Origin: Nioella sp. MMSF_3534
Lineage (GTDB): Bacteria > Pseudomonadota > Alphaproteobacteria > Rhodobacterales > Rhodobacteraceae
NCBI RefSeq assembly: GCF_030732985.1
Contig: NZ_JASHJX010000030.1
Location: 1 to 52,348 of the forward strand
Direction of reading: 5' to 3'
DNA: 52,348 nucleotides
Shown: in pieces, positions 3,371-25,153 of the stretch
Layout of the letters: each line of letters opens with the position of its first letter
Position numbering within the stretch: the first letter of the stretch is position 1
The notes under the pieces: model-generated
Databases searched by the model: none
The model's input: only the letters and a program-made list of their open reading frames with translations
What the model was told of the DNA's origin: nothing
Position numbers and translations under genes: made by a program

Positions 3371-5032
3371 ATGACGACACAGCGAAACATTCTCTGGATC
3401 ATGTGCGACCAGCTGAGGTTTGATTACCTCAGCTGTTATGGTCATGACCGGCTGCACACACCCAGTATCGACCGTCTCGCCGCACGCGGCGTGCGGTTCA
3501 ACAATGCCTATGTGCAGGCGACCGTCTGCGGACCGTCCCGCATGTCGGCCTATACCGGGCGTTACATGCGGTCACATGGGTCAACTCAAAACGCCGTTCC
3601 GCTCAGGGTAGGGGAGCCGACGCTTGGCGATCACCTGGCTGAGACCGGAACCCGCTGCGTCCTGATCGGCAAAACCCATATGCGGCCCGATCTGGAGGGG
3701 ATGAAGCGGCTCGGGATTGACCCGGCATCCGAGATCGGGGCGCGGGTGGCCGAAGGCGGGTTTGAGGCGTTCGACCGCGATGACGGGGTTCACCCAACGG
3801 GCTATCGCAAGAAGGAACCCGCCTATAACGCCTATCTGCGCCATGCCGGGTTCCAGGCGGAAAACCCGTGGGAATTCTGGGCGAACTCGGCTGAAGGGGC
3901 GGACGGCACCAACCAGAGCGGCTGGCTGCTGACCCATGCGGATAAACCTGCGCGTGTTCCTGAAGAGCATTCGGAAACCGCCTATATGACCAACCGCGCC
4001 ATGGCCTTCATGGAGGCAGCAGAAGCGGACGGGCGACCGTGGTGCGCGCACCTGTCCTATATCAAGCCTCACTGGCCCTATATCGTTCCGGCGCCCTACC
4101 ATGACATGTACGGCCCCGAGGATGTGAAGCCTGCCGTGCGAAGCGAGGCAGAGCTGGAAAACGCCCATCCCCTGTTCAAGGCCATCACCGAAGAGGTCTA
4201 TTCGCGCAATTTCTCCCGCGACGAGGTGCGTGAAAAGGTGATCCCGGCCTATATGGGGCTGATCAAACAGATCGACGATCAGCTTGGCCAGCTTTTTGCC
4301 TTCATGGACGAACGCGGGCTGACGGACAACACCATGATCGTGTTCACCTCGGATCACGGGGACTATCTGGGCGATCACTGGATGGGCGAAAAATACATGT
4401 TCTACCAGCAGGCGGCGAAGGTGCCCCTGATCGTCGTGGATCCTTCAAGTGAGGCGGATGCGACGCGCGGAACGGTGTCGGATGCATTGGTCGAGATGAT
4501 CGACCTGGCGCCAACCTTCGTGGAGTATACCGGTGGAACCCCTGCCATGCATATCCTTGAAGGACGGTCCCTGATGCCGCTGCTGCGCGACAGCACTGCG
4601 GACTGGACGCGAACCCATGTCTTTTCAGAGCTCGACTACTCCAACCTGCCAGCCCGGCTAAAACTGGGGCGCGACGTGCAGGAGTGCTGCGCGACCATGG
4701 TGTTTGACGGTCGGTTCAAGATGATCGAGGTGCAGGGAATGCGGCCAATCCTGTTCGATCTGGGGACCGATCCCGATGAGCTGACCGATCTGGGCGACGA
4801 TCCTGCGCAGGAAGACGTGCGTATGCGGCTGCAATCCGCGCTGGACCAGTGGCACCGTGACACCCGTCAGCGCATCACCAAAAGCGACGCGGCCTACAGG
4901 GCCATGGATCCGGTTCTGCGGGAAAGCGACCCCGATCTCTTGGCGGGGGTCATCATCGGCTATTGGGACGAGGAAGAGGTTGAGGCCGAGCGGCGGAAGA
5001 TCGCGCGGATTCTGTCGCAAGGCAATGACTGA
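3371..5032 (+). CDS. Formylglycine-dependent hydrolase: phosphonate monoester hydrolase / arylsulfatase family
   Basis: Encodes 553 residues of the alkaline phosphatase superfamily. Asp13 near the N terminus and the T-S-D-H-G motif near residue 327 supply metal ligands. Cys53 sits in C-G-P-S-R, the signature whose cysteine is converted to formylglycine, the nucleophile of type I sulfatases and phosphonate monoester hydrolases. The overall sequence (Y-x-x-P-H-x-P-Y-I-V-P-A-P-Y-H-x-M-Y, G-L-I-x-Q-I-D-D, C-terminal D-P-x-E-L) resembles the phosphonate monoester hydrolase/phosphodiesterase branch as much as true arylsulfatases. It would hydrolyse a sulfate ester, phosphonate monoester or phosphodiester, in the cytoplasm since no signal peptide is visible. 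The ribosome-binding site is weak and a terminator precedes the gene. The formylglycine-generating enzyme is not in the window. Confidence 0.85.
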   Translation: MTTQRNILWIMCDQLRFDYLSCYGHDRLHTPSIDRLAARGVRFNNAYVQATVCGPSRMSAYTGRYMRSHGSTQNAVPLRVGEPTLGDHLAETGTRCVLIGKTHMRPDLEGMKRLGIDPASEIGARVAEGGFEAFDRDDGVHPTGYRKKEPAYNAYLRHAGFQAENPWEFWANSAEGADGTNQSGWLLTHADKPARVPEEHSETAYMTNRAMAFMEAAEADGRPWCAHLSYIKPHWPYIVPAPYHDMYGPEDVKPAVRSEAELENAHPLFKAITEEVYSRNFSRDEVREKVIPAYMGLIKQIDDQLGQLFAFMDERGLTDNTMIVFTSDHGDYLGDHWMGEKYMFYQQAAKVPLIVVDPSSEADATRGTVSDALVEMIDLAPTFVEYTGGTPAMHILEGRSLMPLLRDSTADWTRTHVFSELDYSNLPARLKLGRDVQECCATMVFDGRFKMIEVQGMRPILFDLGTDPDELTDLGDDPAQEDVRMRLQSALDQWHRDTRQRITKSDAAYRAMDPVLRESDPDLLAGVIIGYWDEEEVEAERRKIARILSQGND

Positions 5033-5269
5033 CGCACGCCCTTCGGCCGCCACGGTCCATGTTTCCTGCCGACGGTTCAACTTCCATCTTGCTGACCCGG
5101 TCTGAAAGCCTCCCTTCCTGATTACCTGGCTGGGAGGAGGGGGGTGGGTCTCTTTTCTGGTCCGACTGGAACATCCTGCATCAATTGGGTTTTCCCGACT
5201 TGATTGACTTCATACATTTTATATATAAAATTATGCAAACGCATGGGATTTGATTCTACAGGGATGCCA
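5033..5269 (+). promoter_or_regulatory. Intergenic promoter region of the oxygenase operon, with a 16-bp AT palindrome at 5216-5231
   Basis: This 237-base gap holds no convincing gene. Its last part is a sharp A+T peak containing a perfect 16-base palindrome at 5216-5231 (ATTTTATA followed by TATAAAAT), about 40 bases before the chosen start of the reductase gene. Such AT-rich dyads are typical of GntR/FCD-type operators, and the position fits a promoter/operator for the catabolic operon. A CCTCCC/GGGAGG inverted repeat further upstream (about 5107-5140) may be a weak terminator for the hydrolase gene. Function is inferred from position and symmetry. Confidence 0.45.
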
Positions 5270-6214
5270 ATGTCGATTGTTCACGCCGAAGTTGCCGCTG
5301 TTTCGTCCGAGACACCTGCCATCAAACGGATTCTGCTGACACCGCAGGGGGATGGTTTTGGTGACTGGCAGGCCGGGGCGCATCTGCGGGTGCAGCTGAC
5401 CGGTGGCGGCAGCCGCGCCTATTCGCTGCTGCGCCTGCCCGATCTGGCCCCTGATCAAGTGGCACTGGGCGTGCTTCTGGAACAGAAAAGCACCGGTGGG
5501 TCGAAGTTCATGCATGCGCTGAAACCCGGCGACATGATCAAGGTCTCGCCGCCCGCCAACCAGTTCGCGCTTGGTGATCACGCCGGACATGCGGTGCTGA
5601 TCGCGGGCGGCATCGGGATCACCCCGATCCTGTCCATGGCCGCGGATCTGGCTGCGGCGGGACGGCCCTTCGAAGTGCATTTCGCCGGCAGGACAGAGGG
5701 CGCGCTGGCTTTCGTCCCCGAGATGACTGCCATCTGCAAGGATGCCCTGCATCTGCATTATGACGACCAACCCAGTGCCATGGATATCAGGGCCATTCTG
5801 GAAGGCGCGCCTGACGGGTCTCACGTCTATTTCTGCGGGCCCGCTGGCATGACAGAGGCCGTGAAAACCCGCGCCTCAGCCCTGGGATGGGATGACGCTC
5901 GCATTCACTACGAGCTGTTCACCACCGATGCGGACGCAAGCGAGAACACCGCCTTCGACGTCGAGATCAGCGACACCGGCCAGATCATCCACGTGCCCGC
6001 CGACAAAAGCATTATCGAGGCGCTGGAAGAGGCCGGGCTCGACCCGCTCTACGACTGCCAGCGCGGGGATTGCGGGATTTGCCAGTGCGATGTGATCGAC
6101 GGCATTCCCGACCACCGCGATGTCATCCTGACCGATGCCGAGAAGGCCTCGAATACCGTCATGCAGATCTGCGTGTCGCGGTCCAAGACCCCCAAACTCG
6201 TCCTCGACCTTTAA
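5270..6214 (+). CDS. Phthalate-dioxygenase-type reductase (FMN/NAD domain with C-terminal [2Fe-2S] ferredoxin)
   Basis: Encodes 314 residues with the domain order of phthalate dioxygenase reductase and VanB: a flavin domain with R-A-Y-S-L, an NAD(P)H-binding domain with G-G-I-G-I-T-P-I-L, and a C-terminal plant-type ferredoxin with C-x4-C-x2-C and a fourth cysteine about 30 residues on. It would pass electrons from NAD(P)H to the Rieske oxygenase encoded next. Three in-frame ATGs are possible; I prefer 5270 because CAGGG lies 6 bases ahead, while 5204 overlaps the promoter palindrome. It is first in the operon and ends 22 bases before the alpha subunit. Reductases of this type more often serve oxygenases made only of alpha subunits. 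Confidence 0.9.
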   Translation: MSIVHAEVAAVSSETPAIKRILLTPQGDGFGDWQAGAHLRVQLTGGGSRAYSLLRLPDLAPDQVALGVLLEQKSTGGSKFMHALKPGDMIKVSPPANQFALGDHAGHAVLIAGGIGITPILSMAADLAAAGRPFEVHFAGRTEGALAFVPEMTAICKDALHLHYDDQPSAMDIRAILEGAPDGSHVYFCGPAGMTEAVKTRASALGWDDARIHYELFTTDADASENTAFDVEISDTGQIIHVPADKSIIEALEEAGLDPLYDCQRGDCGICQCDVIDGIPDHRDVILTDAEKASNTVMQICVSRSKTPKLVLDL

Positions 6215-6236
6215 CCAACAGCCAAAGGATACCAGC

Positions 6237-7577
6237 ATGGAACGATACCGTGGAAACCCGAGAGCCGTTGAAAACCTGGTCAAAGGGCACGCCGTGCACC
6301 GTGATGTCTATGTCGACCGCGAGATCTTCGATCTGGAGATGGAGCAGCTGTTTCCAAACTCCTGGGTCTATGTCGGGCATGAAAGCCAACTGAAAGACCC
6401 TGGCGACTACATCACCAGCAAGATCGGCCATCAGCCCATTCTGGTGTCGCGGCATAAGAACGGCACGATCCACGTGCTGCACAACCGCTGCCCCCACAAG
6501 GGCGTCAAGATCGCGTCCGAGCCCTGCGGCAACACCGGCAAGTTCTTCCGCTGCCCCTATCACGCCTGGAGTTTCAAGACCGACGGATCACTTTTGGCCA
6601 TCCCGCTGAAGAAGGGATACGAAGGCACCGGGTTCGACACTGACAAGGCGTCGAAGGGGCTGCCCCGGGTCGAAAACGTGCAGATCTACCGGGGCTTCAT
6701 CTTTGCCCGCCTGTCGGACACCGGGCTGAGCTTCGAGGAGTATTTCGGAGACTCCCTCTCGACAATCGACAACATGGTGGATCGGTCGCCCATGGGCGAG
6801 GTCGAGATCATCGCCGCGCCGATCCGCTACATGCATAGCTGCAACTGGAAGATGCTGGTCGACAACCAGACCGACACCTGCCACCCAATGGTGGCCCATG
6901 AAAGCAGCGCGGGCACCGCCGTCAGCGTATGGGAACGCGAAAAGCACCGCTTCACCGAAACGCCAATGGCAGTGCAGCTTTATGCGCCCTTCATGAGCCC
7001 CTACGAGTTCTACGAAGGTGCGGGCATCCGCGTCTGGCCGAACGGGCACGGGCATTCCGGTGTGTCCGGGTCGATCCATCAGGATTATGACGATGTCGAA
7101 GGCTATCTAGAGATGATGGTCGAGGCTTACGGCGAAACCCGCGCCCGTGAGATCCTGGGCGATATTCGCCACAACACGCTCTACTTCCCGAACGTGATGG
7201 TGAAGGGACCAGTGGGTATCCTGCGCAACTTCATCCCCATAGCGGTCGACAAGACCCTGGTGGAAAGCTGGGCCTTCCGGCTGGTGGGGGCGCCCGACAA
7301 AATCTACGAACGCGCGCTGATGTATAACCGCTTCATCAACGCGCCCACTTCCATCGTCGGGCATGACGATCTGGAAATGTACGAACGCGCGCAGGAGGGC
7401 CTGCTGTCGGACGCCAATGAGTGGATCAACCTGCGCAGGCTCTACGAGGAGGGGGAGCCTGAGGATGTGACCGAGGTCGTCAACGGCACGTCCGAACGGC
7501 AGATGCGCAACACCTTCTATGCGTGGCGGAAATTCATGGTCCAGGGCATGGATCAGAAAGCGGAGGTCGGCGCATGA
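6237..7577 (+). CDS. Rieske non-heme iron oxygenase, alpha (catalytic) subunit
   Basis: Encodes 446 residues. The N-terminal Rieske domain has Cys85-x-His87 and Cys106-x2-His109 ligands for the [2Fe-2S] cluster. The catalytic domain has D-N-Q-T-D-T-C-H-P-M-V-A-H, giving bridging Asp213 and iron ligands His216 and His221; the third carboxylate is probably in H-D-D-L-E-M near residue 377. This is the ring-hydroxylating oxygenase alpha subunit, which inserts both atoms of O2 into an aromatic ring or performs related monooxygenations. The start at 6237 follows AAAGGA; longer frames overlap the reductase gene. The beta-subunit gene overlaps its stop by 4 bases. The substrate is not determinable by eye; the CoA ligase downstream suggests a carboxylated compound. 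Confidence 0.95.
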   Translation: MERYRGNPRAVENLVKGHAVHRDVYVDREIFDLEMEQLFPNSWVYVGHESQLKDPGDYITSKIGHQPILVSRHKNGTIHVLHNRCPHKGVKIASEPCGNTGKFFRCPYHAWSFKTDGSLLAIPLKKGYEGTGFDTDKASKGLPRVENVQIYRGFIFARLSDTGLSFEEYFGDSLSTIDNMVDRSPMGEVEIIAAPIRYMHSCNWKMLVDNQTDTCHPMVAHESSAGTAVSVWEREKHRFTETPMAVQLYAPFMSPYEFYEGAGIRVWPNGHGHSGVSGSIHQDYDDVEGYLEMMVEAYGETRAREILGDIRHNTLYFPNVMVKGPVGILRNFIPIAVDKTLVESWAFRLVGAPDKIYERALMYNRFINAPTSIVGHDDLEMYERAQEGLLSDANEWINLRRLYEEGEPEDVTEVVNGTSERQMRNTFYAWRKFMVQGMDQKAEVGA

Positions 7578-8047
7578 CCCCCGAGAGGTTGATTGATTTC
7601 GTCTATGACGAGGCCGCCACGCTGGACGAGATGCGGTGGGAGGACTGGCTGGCGCTGTTCCATGAGGACGGGCGCTACTGGATGCCACTGGAATGGCAGC
7701 AGCAGGACCCGGTTTTGCAACCATCGCTCATGTATGAAGACCAGCTTTTGCTGACGGTCCGGGTGGAACGGCTGTCGGGCGAACGCACCTTCAGCCAGAA
7801 ACCGAAAAGCCGCTGTCATCACCTGATGCAGCGCCCGCGTGTGCTGTCGCTTGGGCAGGAGGATGGCATCTATAGGCTGCGCACCTCATTCATCTACACC
7901 GAGACCCGTGGCGACCATCTGGAGCGCTACTCGGGTTGGGTCAGTCATGAACTGGTAGAAGTCGAGGGAACGCTCAAGATCATGCTCAAGCGTGTTGACC
8001 TGATCAATTTCGACGCGCCCTTCGGCAATCTTCAGCTGTTCATTTGA
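7574..8047 (+). CDS. Ring-hydroxylating oxygenase beta subunit
   Basis: Encodes 157 residues, the usual length of the small structural subunit that pairs with the alpha chain in alpha3-beta3 oxygenases (SnoaL/NTF2-like cone fold). Characteristic features are an N-terminal helix with L-I-D-F-V-Y-D-E-A, the D-W-L-A-L-F-H-E-D-G-R-Y-W-M-P segment shared by the family, R-V-E-R-L near residue 62 and a C-terminal strand ending in L-Q-L-F-I. Its ATG overlaps the alpha stop (ATGA), so the subunits are translationally coupled. It has no known catalytic residues. Confidence 0.93.
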   Translation: MTPERLIDFVYDEAATLDEMRWEDWLALFHEDGRYWMPLEWQQQDPVLQPSLMYEDQLLLTVRVERLSGERTFSQKPKSRCHHLMQRPRVLSLGQEDGIYRLRTSFIYTETRGDHLERYSGWVSHELVEVEGTLKIMLKRVDLINFDAPFGNLQLFI

Positions 8048-8060
8048 GGGGCCTGTCAGA

Positions 8061-9668
8061 ATGAGCACCGTATGTGGCCGCTTCGCTGAAACCGCGAACC
8101 GGCGCGGGGACGCGCCTTTCCTGCATGTGCTGGAAGAAACCGCAGCGATCTATGGTATTCCGGCGGGCGACATTTCCTATGCAGAGATGGCCCGGCGTGT
8201 TGCCGACTGGGAAGACCGCCTTTCCGCTGCCGGGGTCGGGCATGGGCACCGGGTGGGGCTGCTTTTGCAGAACCGGCCCGTGTTCATCGAAATCTGGCTC
8301 GCCCTGAACAGCCTTGGTGCATCGGTTGTTCCGATCAATCCCGATCTGCGGCTGGCGGAACTGGAATACCTGGCAGAACATTCCGAAATGGTGCTGGCCA
8401 TCGTCCTGCCGGACCGGGTGGCGGAAATGTCGGATGCGGTGACCAATGCGGGGTCGCCTGCGCGGGTGATCACACCCGATGACGCCATTCCCAAGGCCCC
8501 CGCCCCGGCAGCGGATACCGAAGAGCTGGGGTCCGGGACCGAATGCGCCCTGCTTTACACATCGGGCACGACGGGACGGCCAAAGGGCTGCATCCTGACC
8601 AATGAATACTTCCTGCATTCGGGTGACTGGTACGCCGAGACCGGCGGCCATATCAGCCTGCGCCGCGATACGGAGCGTATGCTGACCCCTCTGCCGCTTT
8701 TCCACATGAACGCCATGGCGGTCTCTGTCATGGCGATGATCACCACAGGCGGCTGCCTGACGCTGCTGGACCGGTTTCACCCGCGCAGCTGGTGGGACTC
8801 GGTGCGCAAGTCGCGGGCGACGGTCGTGCATTACCTCGGGGTCATGCCGCCGATGCTGATGGGGGCGGCGCCATCGCAAGCCGATCGGGACCACACTGTC
8901 CGGTTCGGCTTTGGCGCCGGGGTCGATCCCAAGCTTCATGCCGAGTTCGAAGCCCGCTACGGTTTTCCGCTGATCGAGGCATGGGCCTGCACCGAGACCG
9001 GCAGCGGCGGCGTCATCAGCGCTCATGAGGAACCGCGCAAGGTGGGCACGTCCTGTTTCGGGCGACCCTGTGCCGATGTCGAGGTTCGGGTCGTGGACGA
9101 TGCCGGGCAGGATGCCGTCACCGGAATGCCCGGAGAGCTGCTGGTTCGTCGGGCGGGGGACAACCCTCGGTATGGGTTTTGCGCTGGCTACCTGAAGAAC
9201 CCGGAAGCCACCGCTGAGCTGTGGAAAGGCGGCTGGCTGAACACCGGTGATGTTGTCTTTCAGGACCAAGACGGTTCGCTGCATTTCGTGGATCGCAAGA
9301 AGAACGTCATCCGCCGGTCAGGTGAAAACATCGCCGCCGTGGAGGTTGAAAGCATCCTCAACCGGCATGAAGATATCCGCATTTCCGCAGCGGCCGCCCA
9401 TCCCGATGAGCTGCGCGGAGACGAGGTTGCGGTCTTCCTGATCCTCGAAAGCGGCGGCGGCAGCCCTCAGAAAGCGCATGAGATTGCCACCTGGGCGCTG
9501 GACCAGATGGCCTATTACAAGGTGCCGGGCTGGATCGCCTTCGTGGAAGACCTGCCCCTGACGGCCACCCAGAAAATCCTGCGTGGAAAGCTGAAAGGTC
9601 TCTTGGAAGAGACCATCGCACAGGGCGGTTTCATCGACACCCGCCACCTGAAGAAGCGGCAGCGCTGA
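8061..9668 (+). CDS. AMP-forming acyl-CoA synthetase (ligase)
   Basis: Encodes 535 residues of the ANL superfamily. The AMP/phosphate-binding loop Y-T-S-G-T-T-G-R-P-K-G lies near residue 165, the aromatic A5-type motif is A-W-A-C-T-E-T-G-S-G, the hinge region has G-W-L-N-T-G-D and D-R-K-K-N-V-I-R-R-S-G-E-N, and the catalytic lysine is Lys505 in T-A-T-Q-K-I. It activates a carboxylate to its CoA thioester via an acyl-adenylate. In this operon it probably loads the imported acid or a later intermediate onto CoA before the thiolase-like/DUF35 step. A GAGGGG site precedes the ATG, and the stop overlaps the next start (TGATG). The closest subgroup cannot be settled by eye. Confidence 0.93.
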   Translation: MSTVCGRFAETANRRGDAPFLHVLEETAAIYGIPAGDISYAEMARRVADWEDRLSAAGVGHGHRVGLLLQNRPVFIEIWLALNSLGASVVPINPDLRLAELEYLAEHSEMVLAIVLPDRVAEMSDAVTNAGSPARVITPDDAIPKAPAPAADTEELGSGTECALLYTSGTTGRPKGCILTNEYFLHSGDWYAETGGHISLRRDTERMLTPLPLFHMNAMAVSVMAMITTGGCLTLLDRFHPRSWWDSVRKSRATVVHYLGVMPPMLMGAAPSQADRDHTVRFGFGAGVDPKLHAEFEARYGFPLIEAWACTETGSGGVISAHEEPRKVGTSCFGRPCADVEVRVVDDAGQDAVTGMPGELLVRRAGDNPRYGFCAGYLKNPEATAELWKGGWLNTGDVVFQDQDGSLHFVDRKKNVIRRSGENIAAVEVESILNRHEDIRISAAAAHPDELRGDEVAVFLILESGGGSPQKAHEIATWALDQMAYYKVPGWIAFVEDLPLTATQKILRGKLKGLLEETIAQGGFIDTRHLKKRQR

Positions 9669-10843
9669 TGGGGCTGCAATCCCCATATGAGGGCGTTGCG
9701 ATCTGTGCGCCGACGACCGTGCCATATGTCAGGTTCTCGCCCGAATCCGCCCATTGGTGGGCGGGCGCAGCCCTGCAATCCTTGGCACAAACGACGGGCC
9801 TTGGACCTGCCGACATCGACGGTTTCTGCTTCGCCAGCTTCTCCGCCGCGCCCGATACGGTCGTGGGCATGGTCCAGCATCTGGGCCTCAGCCCGCGCTG
9901 GATGGACCACATCCCGACGGGCGGCGCCAGCGGGGTTATGGCGCTCAGGCGCGCGGCGCGGGCCGTGCAATGCGGCGACGCCGAGGTGGTGGCCTGCGTG
10001 GCGGCCGACACCAACCAGATCGACAGCTATCGTCAGACGCTGGCCGGGTTTTCACGGTTCTCTCAGGACGCAACCTATCCCTACGGGTTCGGCGGCCCGA
10101 ACGCGACCTTTGCGCTGATCACCGGCAATTTCATGCGCCAGTTCGGCGTGACCCGCGAAACCTTCGGCAAGCTCTGCGTGGCGCAGCGGCAGAATGCCCT
10201 GTCCAACCCGCTGGCGCTGATGAAAACGCCCCTGACGCTGGACCAATACATGAGCGCCCGGCCCATTTCAGACCCGGTGCATCTGTTCGATTGCGTGATG
10301 CCCTGCGCAGGGGCTGAGGCGTTTCTGGTCACGACCCCCGAGAAGGCCGAAGAGCTGGGGCTGTCATCGGCGCGGGTCCTCGCCACCATCGAACGCCACA
10401 ATGCGTTTACCGAGGACAGTGTGCAATTTCGCGGCGGGTGGGAACGTGATCGCGAGGCACTTTGGCAGCGCGCGGGCTGCGTGCCTGAGGATATGCATTG
10501 TGTTCAGGTCTATGACGATTACCCGGTGATCGTCGCCATGCAGCTTGCCGATCTCGGGTTCTGTGAGAAACCGGACTTGACGGATTTCATCGCCGCCAAT
10601 GACTTCACCATACCGGGCTCCCTGCCGCTCAACACCAATGGCGGGCAGCTTTCTGCCGGGCAGGCCGGGGCCGCTGGCGGGTTTCAGAACCTGACCGAGG
10701 GGCTGCGGCAGATCCTGCGATGCCCGCTTGGCGACCAGGTGCCCGAGGCTGCCCGCGCCCTGGTGTCCGGTTTCGGGCTGGTGAATTACGACCGCGGCGT
10801 CTGCACCGGGGCTGCGGTGCTGGAAAGGCAGGCCCTGAGATGA
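9668..10843 (+). CDS. Thiolase-like (SCP2/lipid-transfer type) protein lacking the catalytic Cys and His
   Basis: Encodes 391 residues with a thiolase fold: the motif G-G-A-S-G-V-M-A-L near residue 87 and N-G-G-Q-L-S-A-G-Q-A-G-A near residue 325. In true thiolases the first motif carries the nucleophilic Cys and the second a G-H-P with catalytic His; here these are Ala87 and Gln (about 330). It is therefore unlikely to be a normal thiolase. Cys-less homologues paired with DUF35 proteins, such as Ltp2 in steroid side-chain degradation, act as retro-aldolases on beta-hydroxyacyl-CoA, and the next gene here does encode DUF35. I infer a retro-aldol or other CoA-thioester reaction. The gene overlaps both neighbours (TGATG, ATGA). 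Confidence 0.85.
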   Translation: MGLQSPYEGVAICAPTTVPYVRFSPESAHWWAGAALQSLAQTTGLGPADIDGFCFASFSAAPDTVVGMVQHLGLSPRWMDHIPTGGASGVMALRRAARAVQCGDAEVVACVAADTNQIDSYRQTLAGFSRFSQDATYPYGFGGPNATFALITGNFMRQFGVTRETFGKLCVAQRQNALSNPLALMKTPLTLDQYMSARPISDPVHLFDCVMPCAGAEAFLVTTPEKAEELGLSSARVLATIERHNAFTEDSVQFRGGWERDREALWQRAGCVPEDMHCVQVYDDYPVIVAMQLADLGFCEKPDLTDFIAANDFTIPGSLPLNTNGGQLSAGQAGAAGGFQNLTEGLRQILRCPLGDQVPEAARALVSGFGLVNYDRGVCTGAAVLERQALR

Positions 10844-12078
10844 CCGAGCCGCTTCCCATCCCCAAACGCAAGGACCCGCTGAAGCGCAGCAGGTTCGGCC
10901 TTGTGCCGCCCGGTCTGCGCAGCCGTGCAGCGAGCGAGATGGCGACATTTGCCGCGCAGGGGCGTTTCGTTCTGCAAAGCTGTGACCGGTGCCGGTCCAT
11001 CACCTACCCGCCGCGCGACCGCTGCCCTTCATGCTGGGGAACGCTGACCTGGGCTGATCAGGATAGAGGCGCGCGCATTGAGGCCGTCACCACGATCCGC
11101 CACTCCACCGACAATTTCTTTCGCAACCACATGCCCTGGCGGATCGGAACCGCTCGCCTGGACGCGGGACCGGTCGCCATCGTGCATCTTCATGGCGAGG
11201 TGCAACAGGGCGACCGGGTTCGCATGACGCTCCGGCTTGATCGGGGCGGCAACCCCGCCCTGTTCGCCGTGCCGCAAAAGGAGACACCGAACATGCAGGA
11301 CGATCCCCAGCTACGCTGTTTCACGGCTGATCCGAAGCACCGTCGGGTTCTGGTCACGGACGGGCGAACCGCCATCGGGCAGGCGATTGCGCGTGCGCTT
11401 CTCAAGGCCGGGGCGCAGACTGTGTTTCTGGGCGATGCCGACCCTCTGATGCGCTATCCCGGCAAGGCGGAGATCGAGGCACAGGAGGGCATCGAGCCGG
11501 TCTCCCTGAACCTGACCGACAGCGGCAGCGTTCAGGAGCTTGCCGCACAACTTGGCGGACGCGTGGATATCGTGGTCAACACCGCCGGGTTCGTGCGCCC
11601 GGGCGGCGTGGCCTTCGGGGCCAAGCTTTCGGATCTGCAGGCCACGTTTGATCTCGGTGCCGTCGGGCTTGCCCGACTTGCGCAGGGTTTCGCCCCGGCC
11701 ATGAGCGCGCGTTCCGATGACGGGGTGAATTCAGCCGCCGCCTTCCTGGATATCGTGCCGGTGTCAGGCCTCAGCGGGCAATCCGGCTATGCCGGGGCCG
11801 CCGCCAGCGCTGCCGCACGGCTTTCGCTGATGTCCGGATTGCGAGGCGAGATGCAGCAGTCCGGCATTCGTGTGCTGTCGGTCCTGACCGGCCCCGTCGA
11901 TGACGACTGGCACCAGGACCTGCCGCAACCGAAAGTCGCGCCGGGGCAACTGGCACGGGCGGTGGTTCACGCCCTGACCGAGGGACAGGGCATCACCTGC
12001 GCCGGGGATGTTGCGAAAGATCTCTTTGCCCGCTGGCAGGCCAACCCGCTTCTGACCATGAGGGAGGAAAACCGATGA
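10840..12078 (+). CDS. DUF35 (zinc-ribbon/OB-fold) protein fused to a degenerate SDR domain
   Basis: Encodes 412 residues with two modules. Residues about 35-145 form a DUF35 unit: a zinc ribbon with Cys48-x2-Cys51 and Cys62-x2-Cys65, then an OB-fold; DUF35 proteins are obligate partners of SCP2-type thiolase-like enzymes. Residues about 165-400 form a short-chain dehydrogenase-like Rossmann domain. Its cofactor loop reads T-D-G-R-T-A-I-G (canonical T-G-x3-G-x-G), the N-A-G motif is N-T-A-G, and the active site keeps Ser309 and Tyr317, but the essential Lys four residues on is Ala321 and the helix Asn is also missing. The SDR half is probably structural or binding rather than a dehydrogenase. 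It overlaps the thiolase-like gene upstream and the cyclase downstream by ATGA. The fusion looks unusual to me. Confidence 0.85.
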   Translation: MTEPLPIPKRKDPLKRSRFGLVPPGLRSRAASEMATFAAQGRFVLQSCDRCRSITYPPRDRCPSCWGTLTWADQDRGARIEAVTTIRHSTDNFFRNHMPWRIGTARLDAGPVAIVHLHGEVQQGDRVRMTLRLDRGGNPALFAVPQKETPNMQDDPQLRCFTADPKHRRVLVTDGRTAIGQAIARALLKAGAQTVFLGDADPLMRYPGKAEIEAQEGIEPVSLNLTDSGSVQELAAQLGGRVDIVVNTAGFVRPGGVAFGAKLSDLQATFDLGAVGLARLAQGFAPAMSARSDDGVNSAAAFLDIVPVSGLSGQSGYAGAAASAAARLSLMSGLRGEMQQSGIRVLSVLTGPVDDDWHQDLPQPKVAPGQLARAVVHALTEGQGITCAGDVAKDLFARWQANPLLTMREENR

Positions 12079-12866
12079 CCCGCTCACCCCTGACCTTGCT
12101 GGCCGAGGCGCTGGCTGACCGCACCGTCGAATGCATCGACCTGACCAACACGCTCAGCCCCGATTTTCCGGTCATTGTGCTGCCCGCCGAGTTCGGCCAA
12201 TGCGCCCCGTTCCGGATGGAGAAGGTGTCTCGCTACGACGACAATGGCCCCGCCTGGTACTGGAACAATATCTCGATGAACGAACATACCGGCACCCATT
12301 TCGACGCCCCGGCGCATTGGGTGACGGGGAAAGACCTGCCCTCTAACACCGTCGATGCGGTTCCCGCGCAGGATTTCGTGGCCCCTGCCGTGGTGATCGA
12401 CATCTCGAACGAGGCCGCAGCGGATGCGGATTTCGTGCTGACCCGCGCTTTCCTTGAAGACTGGGAGGCGCAGCACGGAGAAATCCCGAAGCGCCATTGG
12501 ATCGCGCTGCGCACCGACTGGTACAAGCGCGTCGGCACGCCAGACTATTTGAACCTGAAAGAGGATGGCGCTCATTCGCCCGGCCCTGACGGCAGAGCGA
12601 TGGAGTTTCTGGTGCATGAGCGGGACTGCGTCGGTCTGGCGGTGGAAACCGTGGGCACCGATGCGGGTCAAGCCTTTCACTTCAACCCGCCGCTTCCGGC
12701 GCATTCGATCCTGCATGGCAACGGGCGCTACGGGCTGCAATGCCTGACGAACCTGGACAAACTGCCGACCTTCGGCGCGATGATCATCGCCTGTCCGCTG
12801 AAGATCGAGGGCGGGTCGGGCAGCCCGCTAAGGGTCATTGCACTGGTAGAAAGGACACCGGCATGA
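12075..12866 (+). CDS. Cyclase-family metal-dependent hydrolase (kynurenine formamidase-like)
   Basis: Encodes 263 residues. The diagnostic H-T-G-T-H-F-D-A-P-A-H-W motif near residue 72 supplies the histidine and aspartate metal ligands of the cyclase family (PF04199), which includes kynurenine formamidase and isatin hydrolase. Members hydrolyse amides, lactones or cyclic imides. Here it may open a ring or remove an acyl or CoA group late in the pathway; that is inferred from operon position. The start overlaps the DUF35-SDR stop (ATGA) and its own stop overlaps the next ATG. Confidence 0.88.
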   Translation: MTRSPLTLLAEALADRTVECIDLTNTLSPDFPVIVLPAEFGQCAPFRMEKVSRYDDNGPAWYWNNISMNEHTGTHFDAPAHWVTGKDLPSNTVDAVPAQDFVAPAVVIDISNEAAADADFVLTRAFLEDWEAQHGEIPKRHWIALRTDWYKRVGTPDYLNLKEDGAHSPGPDGRAMEFLVHERDCVGLAVETVGTDAGQAFHFNPPLPAHSILHGNGRYGLQCLTNLDKLPTFGAMIIACPLKIEGGSGSPLRVIALVERTPA

Positions 12867-13588
12867 GCAAGCGCACGACATTGATCACCGGCGGCAATTC
12901 CGGCATCGGCGCAGCTATCGGACGGGCGTTGCTGGCCAAGGGAGAGGCTGTCGTATCGCTTGGGCTGGAGATGCCCGACGACAGGCATGATGACCTGTTC
13001 GGCTACACCGCCGACCTGACCGACGCGGCGGAAACAGCGGAGGTGGCGGCCCGGATCTGCGCGGCCCACCAGATCGACGCCATTGTGCATAACGCCGGCC
13101 TGATCCTGCCCAATCTGCTGGAAGATGCCGACCCGGCCGACGTGCTCAAGCTGGCGCAACTGCATCTGGCCGCCCCCATGGCCCTGACTCAGGCGGCGCT
13201 GCCGGGAATGGTCGAACGCGGTAGCGGGCGGGTTGTCTTCGTCAGTTCGCGGTCCTTGCAGGGCATGCCCACCCGGTCCGCCTATTCCGCGACCAAGGCG
13301 GGGATAAACGGGCTGGCCCGCACCTGGGCGCTGGAGCTTGCGCCCAAGGGCATCACCGTCAACGTCATCGCCCCCGGCCCTGTGCTGACCGAGAATTTCT
13401 GGGCCATCGTGCCCAAGGATGGAGAGCAGCAGAAGAAAATCGCGAACGGCATCCCCGTGCGCCGGATCGGCACCGCAGAGGATATTGCGAACGCGGCCCT
13501 GTTCTTTCTGGATGACCGGTCAGGCTTCGTCACCGGGCAGGTGCTCTTCGTCTGTGGAGGAACCAGCCTCGCAGGCCAGATCAGCTAG
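12863..13588 (+). CDS. Short-chain dehydrogenase/reductase (classical SDR)
   Basis: Encodes 241 residues with all classical SDR elements: T-G-G-N-S-G-I-G cofactor loop at the N terminus, H-N-A-G, catalytic Ser in V-S-S-R, and Y-S-A-T-K supplying Tyr and Lys, with the usual C-terminal G-Q-V-L-F-V-C-G-G. It should be an active NAD(P)-dependent alcohol dehydrogenase or ketoreductase, possibly cis-dihydrodiol or hydroxyacyl dehydrogenation after the oxygenase, in contrast to the degenerate SDR domain two genes upstream. It ends the operon. Its TAG stop abuts the outer end of a decayed insertion sequence (GGGTCAGG starting at 13588). Confidence 0.93.
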   Translation: MSKRTTLITGGNSGIGAAIGRALLAKGEAVVSLGLEMPDDRHDDLFGYTADLTDAAETAEVAARICAAHQIDAIVHNAGLILPNLLEDADPADVLKLAQLHLAAPMALTQAALPGMVERGSGRVVFVSSRSLQGMPTRSAYSATKAGINGLARTWALELAPKGITVNVIAPGPVLTENFWAIVPKDGEQQKKIANGIPVRRIGTAEDIANAALFFLDDRSGFVTGQVLFVCGGTSLAGQIS

Positions 13589-13975
13589 GGTCAGGTCTTG
13601 TCGCCAGTGAATGACGGTTGCTGCGAGCGCGATGGCCGAGTGGAAGACCGTCGCAAGGGGATCGTATCTGGACGCCAAACGCCGCCCGTCATTGAACCTG
13701 CCAAACATGATCTCGATCATTGCCCGGCAGGGCATTGTACAATGATCTGCTCTGCTCTGCTCTGAGCCTGCGGCCATGGGTTGGCCCTGTTGCAGCTTTT
13801 CCGGGGGTGGTCCCCTTGTCTTCAAGGGCTTCAAGCCGCCAGTCTGCATCCTACACATGGTCCGCCCGAGGTGTTCGGCGGGAGGCAGGCCGTCCGGCAA
13901 TTCCGACGCGCCGAAACAGTCACGCCGCTGGCCAGCCGTCACATACAGACGCGTGGCCGCTTCCGAGGCGCGTCA
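13588..13975 (-). pseudogene. Decayed IS5-family transposase remnant
   Basis: On the minus strand the remains of an IS5-type DDE transposase can be read across at least two frameshifts and an in-frame stop. The order is T-A-G-Q-R-R-D-C, then L-P-P-A-E-H-L, then in another frame D-A-D-W-R-L-E-A-L-E-D-K-G (normally D-R-G-Y-D-A-D-W), then back in the first frame I-E-I-M-F-G-R-F-N-D-G-R-R-L and R-Y-D-P-L-A-T-V-F, with the hydrophobic tail A-I-A-L-A-A-T-V-I. The N-terminal part is missing. A GGGTCAGGTCTTG run at 13588-13600 resembles the terminal repeat of such elements. The remnant lies between the catabolic operon and phnM and cannot be functional. The stretch 13976-14015 holds nothing recognisable. 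Confidence 0.85.
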
Positions 13976-14015
13976 ATCCGGTCCACAGGCACGGCAGAGC
14001 AAAGCGGTTGCGACC

Positions 14016-15158: not shown

Positions 15159-15397
15159 GCTGCGTCCTGTGGGGTAAGTAATGGCCTGTCGGCCCGCAAA
15201 TACCGTGGGGATGTCACGAAACCGTGACGCAAACCGCGCGGTGTCGCGCGGTGGAACGCCAGTCTCTTCCTGTCGCCCCGTGGCCCGGTCCGCAGGCCGT
15301 GGCGACACGGAAAACGATCCGGTTGAGCGCCATCCGGTTCAACCGGGTCGCGGTCTATGGGCACTCCGGGCGCGGCATGTTCCATCGGCTCGCTCAT
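15155..15397 (-). CDS. Possible 80-residue small protein between phnN and phnM
   Basis: An open frame of 80 codons exactly fills the gap between phnN and phnM. Its ATG overlaps the phnN stop (ATGA) and its TGA overlaps the phnM start (ATGA). The product would be Arg- and Pro-rich, basic, without membrane segments or a motif I recognise. Codon use is unlike its neighbours, with ATA, AGA, AGG and TTA codons, and a CGGTTGA/TCAACCG inverted repeat lies within it. It could be a coupling peptide, a decayed gene (many alphaproteobacterial phn operons carry DUF1045 here, but no DUF1045 sequence is visible) or chance. Low confidence as a real protein. Confidence 0.35.
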   Translation of the reverse strand: MSEPMEHAAPGVPIDRDPVEPDGAQPDRFPCRHGLRTGPRGDRKRLAFHRATPRGLRHGFVTSPRYLRADRPLLTPQDAA

Positions 15398-15933
15398 GGC
15401 CCATCGGGCCGAAGCGCCGCGCGCAGCCGTGCGACCCCGTCGTCGATCGTCGTGTCGTTGACAATCTCGATCACCGGCAGCCGCGCCGGAATGGCCTCGA
15501 CATCCCGCGCCATCCGCGCTTCGATCTGCCCGAGGGTTTCGCGGCCACGCCCTTTCAGCCGCTCGGCCAGGATCTGTGCGGGGGCGGAAATATGTATCAC
15601 CGCGAGATCCGGAAACACGCTGGCCGCATGGGAAAGCGCGGCACGGGATCCATTGAACAGAACATCCCGCCCCGTATCCAGAAACGCCAGTTCACGGCGC
15701 GGGATGCCATAGGCCAGGCCATGGGCATGCCACGTCAGGGCAAAGTCGCCCCGTGCCTCTCGTCGCGCGAATTCCGCATCGGTGATGCCCTCGAAGGGCT
15801 CGCCCCCCGCGCTTTCGGGGCGGGTGATCGCGCGCCGGACCCAGTAGGGCCCCGCCGCACCGCAAACCCCGGCAAGCAGCGTATCCTTGCCTGCGCCCGA
15901 TGGGCCGACCACGGCAAACAAACGTCCGGTCAT
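15394..15933 (-). CDS. phnN: Ribose 1,5-bisphosphate phosphokinase PhnN
   Basis: Encodes 179 residues of the guanylate-kinase-like P-loop fold, beginning with [10 protein letters not shown] (Walker A, residues about 10-19). PhnN phosphorylates ribose 1,5-bisphosphate to PRPP, recycling the ribose moiety after C-P bond cleavage. R-R-A-I-T-R-P and the E-x2-F-x-G segment are usual for PhnN. Its start overlaps the phnL stop by ATGA. An upstream in-frame start would add residues inside phnL, so I use 15933. Confidence 0.93.
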
Positions 15934-16607
15934 AGGCCCTCCGAAAAGCCGGTGACATCGACAAGCCGGTCGCACACCTGGTTGCGCGCGTCCTCGTCAT
16001 GGAAAATTCCCAGGATCGCCGACCCCCGAGACTTGGCCTCGCGGATCAGGTCCAGCACGACGGCCCGGTTTCCGGCGTCGAGACTGGCGGTCGGTTCATC
16101 AAGCAGCATCGCCGGCCAGTCGTGAATGAACCCGCGCGCGATGTTCACCCGCTGCTGCTCGCCCCCCGAAAACGTCGTCGGCGACAGGGTCCACAGCCGT
16201 TCCGGGATGTTGAGACGGGTCAGAACCGTCTCGGCCCGCGCGCGCGCCGCATCCGGCGCCACCCCGAGCCGCATGAGCGGTTCGGCAACCACCTCGATGG
16301 TCGGCACCCGCGGCACCACGCGCAGGAACTGGCTGACATAGCCCAGGGTCCCGCGCCTGAGCGCGATGATCTCGCGCGGTTCTGCCCCTGCGACTTCGGT
16401 TTCGCCGACCCTGATCGACCCGCCATCGGTGCGGTAATTGCCCCAGATCATCCGCATGAGCGTCGACTTGCCCGACCCCGAAGCTCCGATCAGCCCCACG
16501 CATTCGCCCGCAGCGACGCGCAAAGCCGCGCCTGCCATCACCGGCAACACGGCGCTGCCCTGATTGTGGAGCGTAAAGCTCTTTGACACATTCGCGACCG
16601 CAATCAT
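15930..16607 (-). CDS. phnL: C-P lyase complex ABC-type ATPase PhnL
   Basis: Encodes 225 residues, an ABC ATPase: Walker [10 protein letters not shown] near residue 42, Q-loop, signature [14 protein letters not shown], and Walker [12 protein letters not shown]. PhnL has no permease partner; it belongs to the PhnGHIJKL machinery and, with PhnI, PhnG and PhnH, takes part in nucleotide-phosphonate ribosylation. It begins 57 bases after phnK stops and overlaps phnN. The V-N-I-A-R-G signature is characteristic of PhnL rather than transporter ATPases. Confidence 0.95.
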
Positions 16608-16664
16608 CCTGGATCCTTCATCCTGCTCTCAAGCCTCATGCCCCGCGGGCCATCGGCACCAATG

Positions 16665-17441
16665 TCAAACCTGTAGAACCGAACTGACCAGCAACTGGGT
16701 ATAGGCATGTTGCGGGTCGTCCAGCACCTGATCGGTCAGGCCCTGTTCCACAACGCGCCCGTCCTTCATCACCATCAGCCGGTCTGCCAGCAGCCGCACG
16801 ACCGCAAGGTCATGGGTGACGATCACGGCGCTCAACCCCATCTGCCGCACCAACCCGCGCAACAGGTCCAGAAGCCGAGCCTGTACGCTGACATCGAGAC
16901 CGCCGGTCGGTTCATCCATGAACACCAGGCGCGGGCCGGTCACGAGGTTCCGGGCGATCTGAAGGCGTTGCTGCATGCCCCCGGAAAACTGACGCGGCCG
17001 GTCGTCGATCCGGTCGGACGAGATCTCGACCCTGCCAAGCCAGTCGACTGCCTGTTCGCGGATCGACCCATAGTGTCGCGCCCCGACCGCCATCAGCCGC
17101 TCTCCGACATTGCCACCGGCACTGACGCCCATGCGCAATCCGTCACGGGGGTTCTGGTGCACGAAGGCCCAGTCCGTGCGCGCCAGCATGCGGCGCTCGG
17201 GTTCGTTCATCGCCAACACGTCGCGGGGGCCGTCAGAACGGGTGTCGAAGATGACGCGGCCGCTGTCCGGGGCCAGATGCCCCGCCATGCAGCTCAGAAG
17301 CGTCGATTTGCCCGAGCCGGATTCTCCGACGATGCCCATCACCTCGCCGGGCCAGAGGTCGAAGGACACATCGGCACATCCGATCCGCCCGCCATAGGTC
17401 TTGGTGATGTCGGAAACCTGCAAAAGCGGATGTTCGGTCAT
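16665..17441 (-). CDS. phnK: C-P lyase complex ABC-type ATPase PhnK
   Basis: Encodes 258 residues with a full ABC ATPase set: G-E-S-G-S-G-K-S-T Walker A, F-S-G-G-M-Q-Q-R-L-Q-I-A-R-N signature, L-V-F-M-D-E-P-T-G-G-L-D Walker B, and a switch His in I-V-T-H-D. PhnK docks on the PhnGHIJ core through PhnJ and powers conformational change. The ATG at 17441 overlaps the phnJ stop (ATGA), the normal phnJ-phnK coupling. The nearest look-alikes are peptide transporter ATPases, but position and the R-I-G-C-x-D-V-S-F-D segment fit PhnK. Confidence 0.95.
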   Translation of the reverse strand: MTEHPLLQVSDITKTYGGRIGCADVSFDLWPGEVMGIVGESGSGKSTLLSCMAGHLAPDSGRVIFDTRSDGPRDVLAMNEPERRMLARTDWAFVHQNPRDGLRMGVSAGGNVGERLMAVGARHYGSIREQAVDWLGRVEISSDRIDDRPRQFSGGMQQRLQIARNLVTGPRLVFMDEPTGGLDVSVQARLLDLLRGLVRQMGLSAVIVTHDLAVVRLLADRLMVMKDGRVVEQGLTDQVLDDPQHAYTQLLVSSVLQV

Positions 17442-18304
17442 GCCGCGTCCCCTTGTGTCGACAGCCGTCCGCCATGGCCCTCGGCCTGGCGGCTGGCGCA
17501 ATGGTCGGTGTCCGAACAGACGAACATGCGCCCGCCCCGATCGTCGGTGATCACCTCGTCGAGATAGCTGCCCTCATCTCCGCACAGATCGCATGGGTGC
17601 GGGGCCTTCGTCGCTTCGAACGGGTAGTCCTCGAAATCGAGGCTGACGACCTTTGTAAAGGGCGGGATCGCGTAGATCCGTTGTTCGCGTCCGGCCCCGA
17701 AAAGCTGAAGCGCGGGGGTTCCGGACAGTTTCGGATTGTCGAATTTCGGGATCGGCGAGGGATCCATGACATAGCGCCCCTCGACCTTGACCGGATAGGC
17801 GTAGCTGGTGGCGATGGCGCCGTTGCGGGCGATGTCTTCGTAGAGTTTTACATGCATCAGGCCATAATCCTCGAGCGCATGCATCCGCCGGGTTTCCGTC
17901 TCGCGCGGCTCCAGAAAGCGCAGCGGTTCGGGGATGGGAACCTGATAGACCAGGATCTGGCCCGCGATCAGCGGACGTTCGGGAATCCGGTGGCGGGTCT
18001 GGATCAGCGTTGCGGCGCCCGTATGCTCGGTTACCGCAACAGCGGCAGTGCGCTGGAAGAACTTGCGGATGCTGACGGCGTTGGTGGTGTCATCGGCCCC
18101 CTGGTCGATGACCTTGAGCCTGTCATCGGGCGTCAGACAGGCAGCCGTGACCTGCACGCCGCCTGTGCCCCAACCGTAGGGCATCGGCATTTCGCGACTG
18201 GCGAAAGGCACCTGGTAGCCGGGCACCGCGACCCCCTTGAGGATCGCGCGGCGGATCATCCGCTTGGTCTGCTCGTCGAGATAGGCGAAATTGTAGTCGC
18301 TCAT
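17438..18304 (-). CDS. phnJ: Alpha-D-ribose 1-methylphosphonate 5-phosphate C-P lyase PhnJ
   Basis: Encodes 288 residues, the radical-SAM enzyme that breaks the carbon-phosphorus bond. The non-canonical cluster motif is intact at the C terminus: C-D-L-C, then 21 residues, C, five residues, C (C-x2-C-x21-C-x5-C). The N-terminal Y-N-F-A-Y-L-D-E-Q-T-K-R-M-I-R-R and the P-M-P-Y-G-W-G-T-G-G segment are highly conserved in the family. It works in the PhnGHIJ core. Upstream it overlaps a 28-codon ORF rather than phnI directly; downstream it overlaps phnK. Confidence 0.97.
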   Translation of the reverse strand: MSDYNFAYLDEQTKRMIRRAILKGVAVPGYQVPFASREMPMPYGWGTGGVQVTAACLTPDDRLKVIDQGADDTTNAVSIRKFFQRTAAVAVTEHTGAATLIQTRHRIPERPLIAGQILVYQVPIPEPLRFLEPRETETRRMHALEDYGLMHVKLYEDIARNGAIATSYAYPVKVEGRYVMDPSPIPKFDNPKLSGTPALQLFGAGREQRIYAIPPFTKVVSLDFEDYPFEATKAPHPCDLCGDEGSYLDEVITDDRGGRMFVCSDTDHCASRQAEGHGGRLSTQGDAA

Positions 18305-18387
18305 GCCGCGTCTCCGGGTTGCTGATCGGCCCGTGCAGGCCCCTTCGCGATGACGGACCGCAGGGATGTGAAGACAGGTCCGGTCAT
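18301..18387 (-). CDS. Candidate 28-residue small protein between phnI and phnJ
   Basis: A 29-codon frame exactly bridges phnI and phnJ. Its ATG overlaps the phnI stop (ATGA at 18384-18387), and its TGA overlaps the phnJ start (ATGA at 18301-18304). The predicted peptide starts M-T-G-P-V-F-T-S-L-R-S-V-I-A-K-G, with a short amphipathic first half and a polar Ala/Asp/Gln tail. I do not recognise it. It could be a real micropeptide of the C-P lyase operon or a coupling leader that carries ribosomes from phnI to phnJ. The double overlap is what makes it worth listing; expression is unproven. Confidence 0.45.
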   Translation of the reverse strand: MTGPVFTSLRSVIAKGPARADQQPGDAA

Positions 18388-19454
18388 TCCGCCGCCTCCG
18401 TCATGCCCGCCCGCAGACGCCGCACCAGTTCCAGCTCGGACTGGAAATCGACGTAGTGGGGCAGCTTGATATGCTCGAGGAATCCGGTCGCCTGAATATT
18501 GTCCGCATGCATCAGGACAAATTCCTGGTCCTGAACCGGTGCGCCGGTGTCATCTTCACCCAGTTCCTTCCAGCGCAGCGCCCGATCCACCAAGGACATC
18601 GAGATCGCCTTGCGTTCGGTTTGCCCGAACACAAGCCCATAACCGCGGGTGAATTGCGGCGGCTGGGTTTTGGAACCGGTGAACTGGTTCACGGTCTCGC
18701 ATTCCGTGACGGTGATCTCGCCGATCTCGATGGCGACCCCCAGTTCGGAGATGTCCATCTCGACCGCGACCTCGCCAATGCGCAATTCCCCGACGAAGGG
18801 ATGGGTGCGCCCAAAGCCACGCTGGCTGGAATAGGCCAGCGACAGGATGAACCCCTCGTCCCCTCGTGTCAGGGCCTGAAGGCGCAAGGCCCGGTCGGCG
18901 GGCAGTTCCATCGGTTCGCGTGTCAGGTCACCCGGCGTGGCGTCCGAGGCGGGTTCCTCCTCGATCAGCCCCTCGCGGTCCAGAAAGCCGGTGACGCGCG
19001 GCACGTCGCCCAGAGGGGAGGCTTGCGGCGCGGGCGGTGCATCCCCTTCGGCCGCCAGAGCAAAGTCGATCAGACGGTGGGTGTAGTCAAAGGTCGGCCC
19101 CAGGATCTGCCCGCCCGGCAAGTCCTTGTAGGTCGCCGAAATCCGCCGCGTCGTGGCCATCTTGCCGGTGTCGACGGGGGTGGAATACCCAAGACGGGGC
19201 AGGGTGGTGCGATAGGCACGGATCAGAAAGATCGCCTCGATCAGGTCACCGCGCGCTTGCTTGATCGCCAGCGCCGCAAGATCAGGATCATAGAGCGAGC
19301 CCTCGGTCATGACCCGGTTCACGGCCAGCGCCATTTGCTCGCGGATCTGTGCAACTGACAGGTCCGGGACCGCCGGATCGCCGCGACGTTCCTCGGCCAG
19401 GAAGGCATGTGCGTTGTCGATGGCCCGTTCGCCACCCTTGACGGCGACATACAT
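18384..19454 (-). CDS. phnI: C-P lyase core subunit PhnI (nucleosidase/phosphonate ribosyl transfer)
   Basis: Encodes 356 residues, beginning M-Y-V-A-V-K-G-G-E-R-A-I, the usual PhnI start, with the conserved R-R-I-S-A-T-Y-K-D-L-P-G-G-Q and L-x-L-A-Y-S-S-Q-R-G-F-G-R-T-H-P-F stretches. PhnI with PhnG, PhnH and PhnL swaps the adenine of ATP for a phosphonate; alone it is a purine nucleosidase. I set the ATG at 19454, overlapping the phnH stop by one base, because an upstream in-frame start lies within phnH. Confidence 0.96.
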   Translation of the reverse strand: MYVAVKGGERAIDNAHAFLAEERRGDPAVPDLSVAQIREQMALAVNRVMTEGSLYDPDLAALAIKQARGDLIEAIFLIRAYRTTLPRLGYSTPVDTGKMATTRRISATYKDLPGGQILGPTFDYTHRLIDFALAAEGDAPPAPQASPLGDVPRVTGFLDREGLIEEEPASDATPGDLTREPMELPADRALRLQALTRGDEGFILSLAYSSQRGFGRTHPFVGELRIGEVAVEMDISELGVAIEIGEITVTECETVNQFTGSKTQPPQFTRGYGLVFGQTERKAISMSLVDRALRWKELGEDDTGAPVQDQEFVLMHADNIQATGFLEHIKLPHYVDFQSELELVRRLRAGMTEAAE

Positions 19455-20463: not shown

Positions 20464-20472
20464 CTTGCTTAT

Positions 20473-20492: not shown

Positions 20493-20540
20493 CTCGACAT
20501 ATCTTAGCAGGCCATATCCAATCCTTCACGTGAAGTTTCT

Positions 20541-21254: not shown

Positions 21255-21311
21255 TCGTCACCAAACTGTCATGGGAACGCGGGATAGAGGGGCAGTTTCT
21301 CGGAGCCCATC

Positions 21312-23153: not shown

Positions 23154-23155
23154 TG

Positions 23156-25149: not shown

Positions 25150-25153
25150 GATA

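Follow-up and report, generated by a model that had tools for sequence, protein, structure and literature searches.

An iad-type auxin degradation operon in Nioella sp. MMSF_3534 with a predicted redox-free retro-aldol step for side-chain removal

Given the encoded protein families, gene order and conserved residues, eight genes in a 52,348-nucleotide stretch of Nioella sp. MMSF_3534 DNA (NZ_JASHJX010000030.1, hereafter the window) were identified as a known type of bacterial operon, iadCDEFGHIJ, predicted to convert the auxin indole-3-acetic acid (IAA) to anthranilate. We consider it highly probable that this is an iad operon of a distinct subclade, that IadG and IadH perform a redox-free retro-aldol cleavage and that the SDR domain of IadH is a pseudoenzyme. 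The operon itself was already known; what is added here is a mechanism for removal of the two-carbon side chain, in a process, bacterial auxin breakdown, by which root growth is shaped.

Conversion of IAA to anthranilate has been shown for Variovorax. According to the available text of a 2025 preprint on iadC-K2 of this genus (PMC12633357), IadCDE oxygenate IAA, IadJ makes C10H9NO4, i.e., dioxindole-3-acetic acid, and F, G, H and I then lead towards anthranilate; F, G and H were assigned by annotation, and a 2,3-epoxide intermediate is a proposal of the authors. The IMG gene numbers of Variovorax CL14 run C, D, E/F, G, H-J, K2, K3 (available text of PMC10374108). Elsewhere, iac-like and iad-like loci were defined, iadA and iadB being indolepyruvate oxidoreductase-like genes, and Ruegeria pomeroyi was found to degrade IAA (available text of PMC9613470). 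'Fragmented' iad-like operons are described for sphingomonads (PMC11630574, in part). The 'iad' names in the accessible part of PMC8383072 refer to an iac-like cluster of Pseudomonas LY1; neither this paper nor PMC11321319 alters the account given here.

Gene content and packing

Translation and start checks bore out the tight packing of eight genes described in a sequence-only reading of this DNA. The genes occupy 5264-13588 on the + strand with overlaps of 1-4 bases or short gaps, the junctions between consecutive genes from iadC to iadJ being 22, -4, 13, -1, -4, -4 and -4 bases. An alternative in-frame ATG at 5270 may be the real start of iadC. Pfam and NCBIfam served for domain assignment; because no NCBIfam model among the matches listed for the eight proteins reached its curated cut-off, specific protein names were taken from closer comparisons.

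iadC, 5264-6214, + strand: FNR-type reductase (NAD-binding) with C-terminal 2Fe-2S ferredoxin domain, from Pfam
iadD, 6237-7577, + strand: Rieske oxygenase alpha subunit; Pfam Rieske and Ring_hydroxyl_A; PDB 7yls/8h2t, 2.5e-161
iadE, 7574-8047, + strand: Rieske oxygenase beta subunit; Ring_hydroxyl_B, PF00866, 4.5e-24
iadF, 8061-9668, + strand: AMP-forming acyl-CoA ligase; AMP-binding, PF00501, 1.1e-60
iadG, 9668-10843, + strand: thiolase-fold protein, predicted retro-aldolase; Thiolase_C_1; Gly86, Y282-D-D-Y285, Q327, Q332
iadH, 10840-12078, + strand: ChsH2/DUF35 zinc ribbon and OB fold (about 38-131) fused to a degenerate SDR (about 166-404); Pfam zf-ChsH2 and OB_ChsH2_C, then adh_short, in one chain
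iadI, 12075-12866, + strand: isatin hydrolase-type cyclase-family hydrolase; Pfam Cyclase; PDB 5nnb, 6.7e-108
iadJ, 12863-13588, + strand: SDR dehydrogenase with intact active-site motifs; Pfam adh_short

This gene content agrees well with the chemical outline of the sequence-only reading, namely oxygenation, CoA activation and carbon-carbon cleavage by a thiolase-like/DUF35 pair, with a cyclase-type hydrolase and an SDR as helpers. The same reading had held that the gene order was not that of a characterised pathway, which proved incorrect: the iadC-J families stand together in one operon in the window, and both families and order match the published iad genes of Variovorax, as well as the operon of R. 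pomeroyi.

Identity of the operon

Window IadD aligned end to end with the 7yls/8h2t chain (residues 2-436 of 446), and 9o71 matched equally well. These PDB codes are not printed in the searchable text of PMC10374108. Every residue named in that text, e.g., Asn210, His216, Arg329 and Asp377, occurs in the chain at the stated number, and because of this agreement in residues and numbering 7yls/8h2t was taken to be Variovorax IadD. Eight of the nine IAA-pocket residues of solved IadD are identical in the window protein, the ninth, Leu211, being replaced by Gln. Among 48 IadD sequences, the eight pocket residues never varied, nor did the ligands of the iron or the four of the Rieske centre (48/48); position 211 was Gln in 38 sequences and Leu in 10. 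IadI, besides its homology to isatin hydrolase A (PDB 5nnb), contained HxxxHxDxxxH, which we take to be the isatin hydrolase metal motif, together with Glu191 in 79/79 sequences. A steroid or bile-acid side-chain pathway was discarded because IadD and isatin hydrolase are much better matches for the oxygenase and the hydrolase.

With the iad operon known from Variovorax paradoxus CL14, and also from Achromobacter and Bradyrhizobium, the window operon shares the C-J gene set, families, order and IAA-pocket and metal residues. It differs in that neither an IadR-like MarR gene nor an IadK ABC transporter was seen beside it (the contig begins 5 kb upstream), that the iadAB-like genes are on another contig and that it belongs to a distinct sequence clade. 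On the megaplasmid of R. pomeroyi DSS-3 (SPO_RS20500-20465), all eight genes are arranged as in the window and are 75-95% identical to those found there (79% for iadC).

Distribution and gene order

The check for co-occurrence of the eight families by neighbourhood was run on 85 loci: the best 80 of at least 559 relatives in an IadG-profile scan of genome contigs, and five plasmid loci examined from 44 matching plasmid records. These loci were picked by similarity to window IadG and are not a random sample; 69 of the 85 had enough flank. All eight genes in the order C-D-E-F-G-H-I-J were found at 26 of the 85 loci, each time on one strand with gaps of less than 400 bases. The packing of the eight genes is thus not a product of chance, since order, strand and short gaps are kept at these 26 loci. 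The same order was noted in R. pomeroyi, Sulfitobacter sp. THAF37, Roseibium and S. indolifex and, at 40-64% identity, in Variovorax dokdonensis (one locus) and two Achromobacter loci. Rearranged or partial sets appeared at other loci, e.g., I-C-D-E-F-G-J at three Alcaligenes loci, in which iadH was not found at the cut-offs used, F-G-H-I alone at 20/85 loci and F-G-H at 3/85. Residue and locus counts are based on tblastn-derived genes, and the residue counts exclude genes that fell under identity cut-offs, had less than 80% coverage or were broken by a contig end.

Within the family of the window, an IadD match at 1e-100 or better was present in 34 of 394 genomes (own genome counted) and an IadG match at 1e-60 or better in 21 of 248. 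The single other genome of the same genus had neither match at these thresholds.

Predicted mechanism of side-chain removal

From residues and predicted models, we infer that IadG and IadH cleave dioxindole-3-acetyl-CoA to isatin and acetyl-CoA with no redox step. In the proposed pathway, IadC, D and E would oxygenate IAA, IadJ would dehydrogenate the hydrated product to dioxindole-3-acetate and IadF would presumably form the CoA thioester. IadG, resting on the IadH DUF35 domain, would then cleave this tertiary beta-hydroxy thioester by a retro-aldol reaction, the SDR domain of IadH serving as a structural pseudoenzyme, and IadI would, by homology, convert isatin to isatinate en route to anthranilate.

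The position of the thiolase cysteine is occupied by Gly86 in 97/97 IadG sequences, so the nucleophilic Cys of SCP2-type thiolases was not found in any of them, and YDDY (Y282-D-D-Y285), Q327 and Q332 were likewise invariant (97/97). In a profile alignment read by eye, Gly86, Tyr282, Gln327 and Gln332 of IadG fell on Gly89, Tyr302, Gln347 and Gln352 of the steroid aldolase CtSal, and Asp284 on its Cys304. As described in the available text of PMC12329534, CtSal has Tyr302 and Cys304 of YDCY, Gly in place of the nucleophilic Cys of thiolases, and Gln347 and Gln352 close by; TcLtp2 uses YDHF, Sal Gln352 is paired with Ltp2 Tyr344, and CtSal with C304A, S or H had no activity, indicating that Cys304 is needed. 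IadG thus has the Cys-to-Gly replacement and YDxx Tyr of the Sal/Ltp2 type (97/97) and a DUF35 partner with an intact zinc ribbon (four Cys in 87/87 IadH sequences), but the second catalytic residue of Sal (Cys304) or Ltp2 (Tyr344) is absent, with Asp284 at the former position and Gln332 aligned with Sal Gln352. These residues suggest that IadG works like Sal and Ltp2, although it is not classed as either.

A predicted model of IadG (pLDDT 83.4, with low confidence around 118-139 and 200-210) had Sal-Shy (1.4e-27) and Ltp2-ChsH2 (2.1e-26) as its nearest structures, with thiolases ranking below them. The Ltp2/DUF35 precedent invoked in the sequence-only reading was a good comparison. IadG/IadH and these steroid aldolases have in common the thiolase fold, the lost Cys, YDxx, the DUF35 partner and, as proposed here, a beta-hydroxy thioester substrate. 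They differ in the motif itself (YDDY as opposed to YDCY in Sal and YDHF in Ltp2), in the partner domain (degenerate SDR in IadH, MaoC in Shy) and in the substrate, which is much smaller for IadG/IadH. The benzoylsuccinyl-CoA thiolase BbsAB is likewise a thiolase-like and DUF35 pair; BbsB, however, has Cys at the aligned nucleophile position and is described as a thiolase, whereas IadG has Gly. Benzylsuccinate-type thiolysis was dropped as a model for IadG because the thiolase Cys is missing.

The predicted model of IadH (pLDDT 92.2) contained an SDR fold (5u4s, 1.2e-18). TGxxxGxG and YxxxK are the classical SDR motifs; in the SDR domain of IadH the catalytic Lys was present in 0/87 sequences and the Tyr in 21/87, and Asp174 replaced the first Gly of TGxxxGxG in 87/87, a pattern that differs from that of classical SDR dehydrogenases. 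In IadJ from the same loci, used as a control, T-G-G-G, N, Y and K were present in 53/53 sequences, the Ser position being mostly Ser or Thr. The pseudo-SDR of BbsCD is presumably a parallel to the SDR domain of IadH.

Thiolysis calls for a 3-oxoacyl-CoA, which oxidation of a tertiary alcohol cannot provide. Because the substrate is such an alcohol, dioxindole-3-acetyl-CoA would not be open to 3-oxoacyl-CoA thiolysis. This point, with Gly at the nucleophile position of IadG (97/97) and loss of the SDR lysine from IadH (87/87), makes it quite unlikely that, within the same iad operon, IadG is a ketothiolase and IadH an alcohol dehydrogenase which together yield dioxindole. That assignment was made from annotation in the available text of PMC12633357, where Variovorax without iadI is reported to accumulate C8H7NO2, the formula of dioxindole, taken by the authors as a sign of reductive side-chain removal. 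The same observation counts against the retro-aldol proposal, under which a side reduction of isatin would be needed to explain C8H7NO2, as do Asp at a position that is essential in CtSal, the low-confidence stretches of the IadG model and the three Alcaligenes loci at which iadH was not found at the cut-offs used. Taken together, the residues suggest that an aldolase-type enzyme takes off the side chain, and not a thiolase working with a dehydrogenase.

The practical consequence is that a step assigned by annotation in the available text of PMC12633357 is predicted from residues to give isatin, not dioxindole, with no cofactor. The terms retro-aldol, aldolase and DUF35 are absent from the main text of that preprint. 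A retro-aldol proposal for iad was not found among the literature matches listed, from a collection that takes in few subscription papers, and hence no claim is made that the proposal is unpublished. If correct, the proposal would carry an aldolase mechanism of the steroid type over to a small plant hormone.

The A-type subclade and F-G-H-I loci

In FastTree trees with local supports, the window operon falls in a distinct subclade, labelled here the A type, which occurs in Ruegeria, Sulfitobacter, a Tepidamorphus MAG and a Rhodobacteraceae MAG. In trees of D, E and J the window grouped with the R. pomeroyi megaplasmid, Sulfitobacter DFL-14, EhC04 and THAF37 and the two MAGs (support 1.0, 0.998 and 1.0). 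In trees of F, G, H and I this group was joined by Celeribacter (0.999, 0.779, 0.919 and 0.971), and the A-type group formed one clade with loci of Novosphingobium, Azospirillum and relatives (1.0, 1.0, 1.0 and 0.998), in which IadD was not found alongside.

The separate clade of the A type also bears on whether the operon is a paralogue that performs identical reactions on an indole-3-acetic acid other than IAA itself, be it a ring-substituted or a related compound, a reading that is compatible with the others. Sulfitobacter DFL-14 and EhC04 each have an A-type IadD (83%) and a second IadD (63%), and it is the second that adjoins a 71% match to the IadR-like MarR of S. indolifex; a match to this MarR (1e-8) stood beside the A-type operon in none of the 5 genomes or records searched. 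Nevertheless, a different substrate appears unlikely, given that every metal ligand and eight of the nine residues of the IAA pocket are the same in all sequences of either type (48/48) and that Gln211, the ninth residue, is the commonest there (38/48). As for R. pomeroyi, the IAA-binding MarR of this species, 3CDH, is similar to the one that adjoins the S. indolifex operon (3.3e-46), and a match of only 30% to the latter is present on the megaplasmid, where the A-type operon lies; because of this, a second locus may be responsible for IAA degradation by this species.

At the cut-offs used, 37 loci had G but not D. Among 25 genomes of such loci, for which completeness is unstated, there was no IadD match (1e-30) in 10 and a 64% match in one, and in the remaining 14 the best IadD match was 29-49% identical. 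Genes next to F-G-H-I varied between loci without IadD. We lean towards the combined proposal that IadG/IadH represent a third type of DUF35-dependent retro-aldolase, in which a Tyr-Asp dyad goes together with a DUF35 domain fused to a pseudo-SDR scaffold, and that F-G-H-I is a portable cassette from dioxindole-3-acetate to isatinate, coupled to different oxygenases by lineage, the 10 genomes with no IadD match included. If so, surveys keyed to the Rieske oxygenase would miss F-G-H-I loci or score them as 'fragmented'.

Several neighbourhoods were recorded separately. F-G-H-I loci without a Rieske oxygenase lie beside IorAB-like genes at L025 (by Pfam), L026 and L034 (by clustering) and similar loci; L025 and L034 also have a MarR gene, and L025 an amino-acid permease and an aldehyde dehydrogenase. 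At L095 (13807-17151) and, by clustering, L097, F-G-H-I occurs with a luciferase-like monooxygenase and a RutF-like flavin reductase, which are a possible alternative oxidase. Three Sulfitobacter loci, L018 (9448-15781) and, by clustering, L022 and L036, have a second thiolase downstream of the A-type iad operon, accompanied at L018 by an OB-fold partner, a TRAP transporter and an acyl-CoA ligase.

Flanking regions and the rest of the genome

The region before iadC contains one feature of note.

promoter/operator-like block, 5199-5245, + strand: CTTGA -35-like element, palindrome TTTTATATATAAAA (5217-5230) and inverted arms ATGC/GCAT (5233-5244), palindromes found by eye

This block was partly conserved in six aligned A-type upstream regions (the window and five others), the rest of which differed. 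The only sigma-70-like match in 4900-14000 lay just before iadC at 5204-5231, shifted by 4 bases, and means little alone since shuffles gave 1.5 such matches on average. The presence of a promoter- and palindrome-like block fits a separate iad transcript.

TctB-A-C and sulfatase genes lie upstream of iadC, the sulfatase side abutting it, so that the adjacency of a TctABC importer given in the sequence-only reading held; a functional link is not supported. TctC and the sulfatase were found near the operon at 1/85 loci, that of R. pomeroyi (84% each; 14-kb flanks, as opposed to 10 kb or less at other loci, where a more distant copy would have escaped notice), and on this ground TctABC was dropped as part of the system; the case for a link with iad is weak. 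In R. pomeroyi the Tct/sulfatase cluster is about 9 kb off on the other strand, separated from iad by IS5, CHAT and AAA genes, and follows cupin, FAH-family and Asp/Glu racemase genes, a set that we read as gentisate-like. Direct adjacency in the window is what would favour an uncharacterised pathway for another aromatic acid imported by TctABC. This reading is very improbable indeed in view of the end-to-end match to IadD and the match to isatin hydrolase, the identical operon elsewhere and the company of the Tct cluster at the one locus of 85 where it was found.

Elsewhere in the Nioella genome, contig C77 carries an iadA-like gene (77% to the copy at L025), an iadB-like gene, a 4HBT_2 thioesterase and two MarR genes, and a second iadA-like copy (53%) lies on contig C44. 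For the IadR-like MarR of S. indolifex, this genome had only weak counterparts, at 35% on C28 (the best) and 30% on C77.

Just after iadJ, a - strand ORF (13520-13942) has a transposase DDE match (PF13586, 4.6e-8, about 13607-13774), to be compared with the IS5 element between iad and the Tct cluster in R. pomeroyi. A beta-hydroxyaspartate cycle cluster lies at 43909-49360 of the window, where bhcD, bhcC, bhcB and bhcA occupy the - strand and each exceeds its NCBIfam cut-off, the + strand having a bhcR-like regulator (335.5 of 350 bits); bhcR of R. pomeroyi is also about 9 kb from its iad operon. The region 15394-27854 is one of phosphonate utilisation, in which PhnC was confirmed and other phn-like genes were read from translations.
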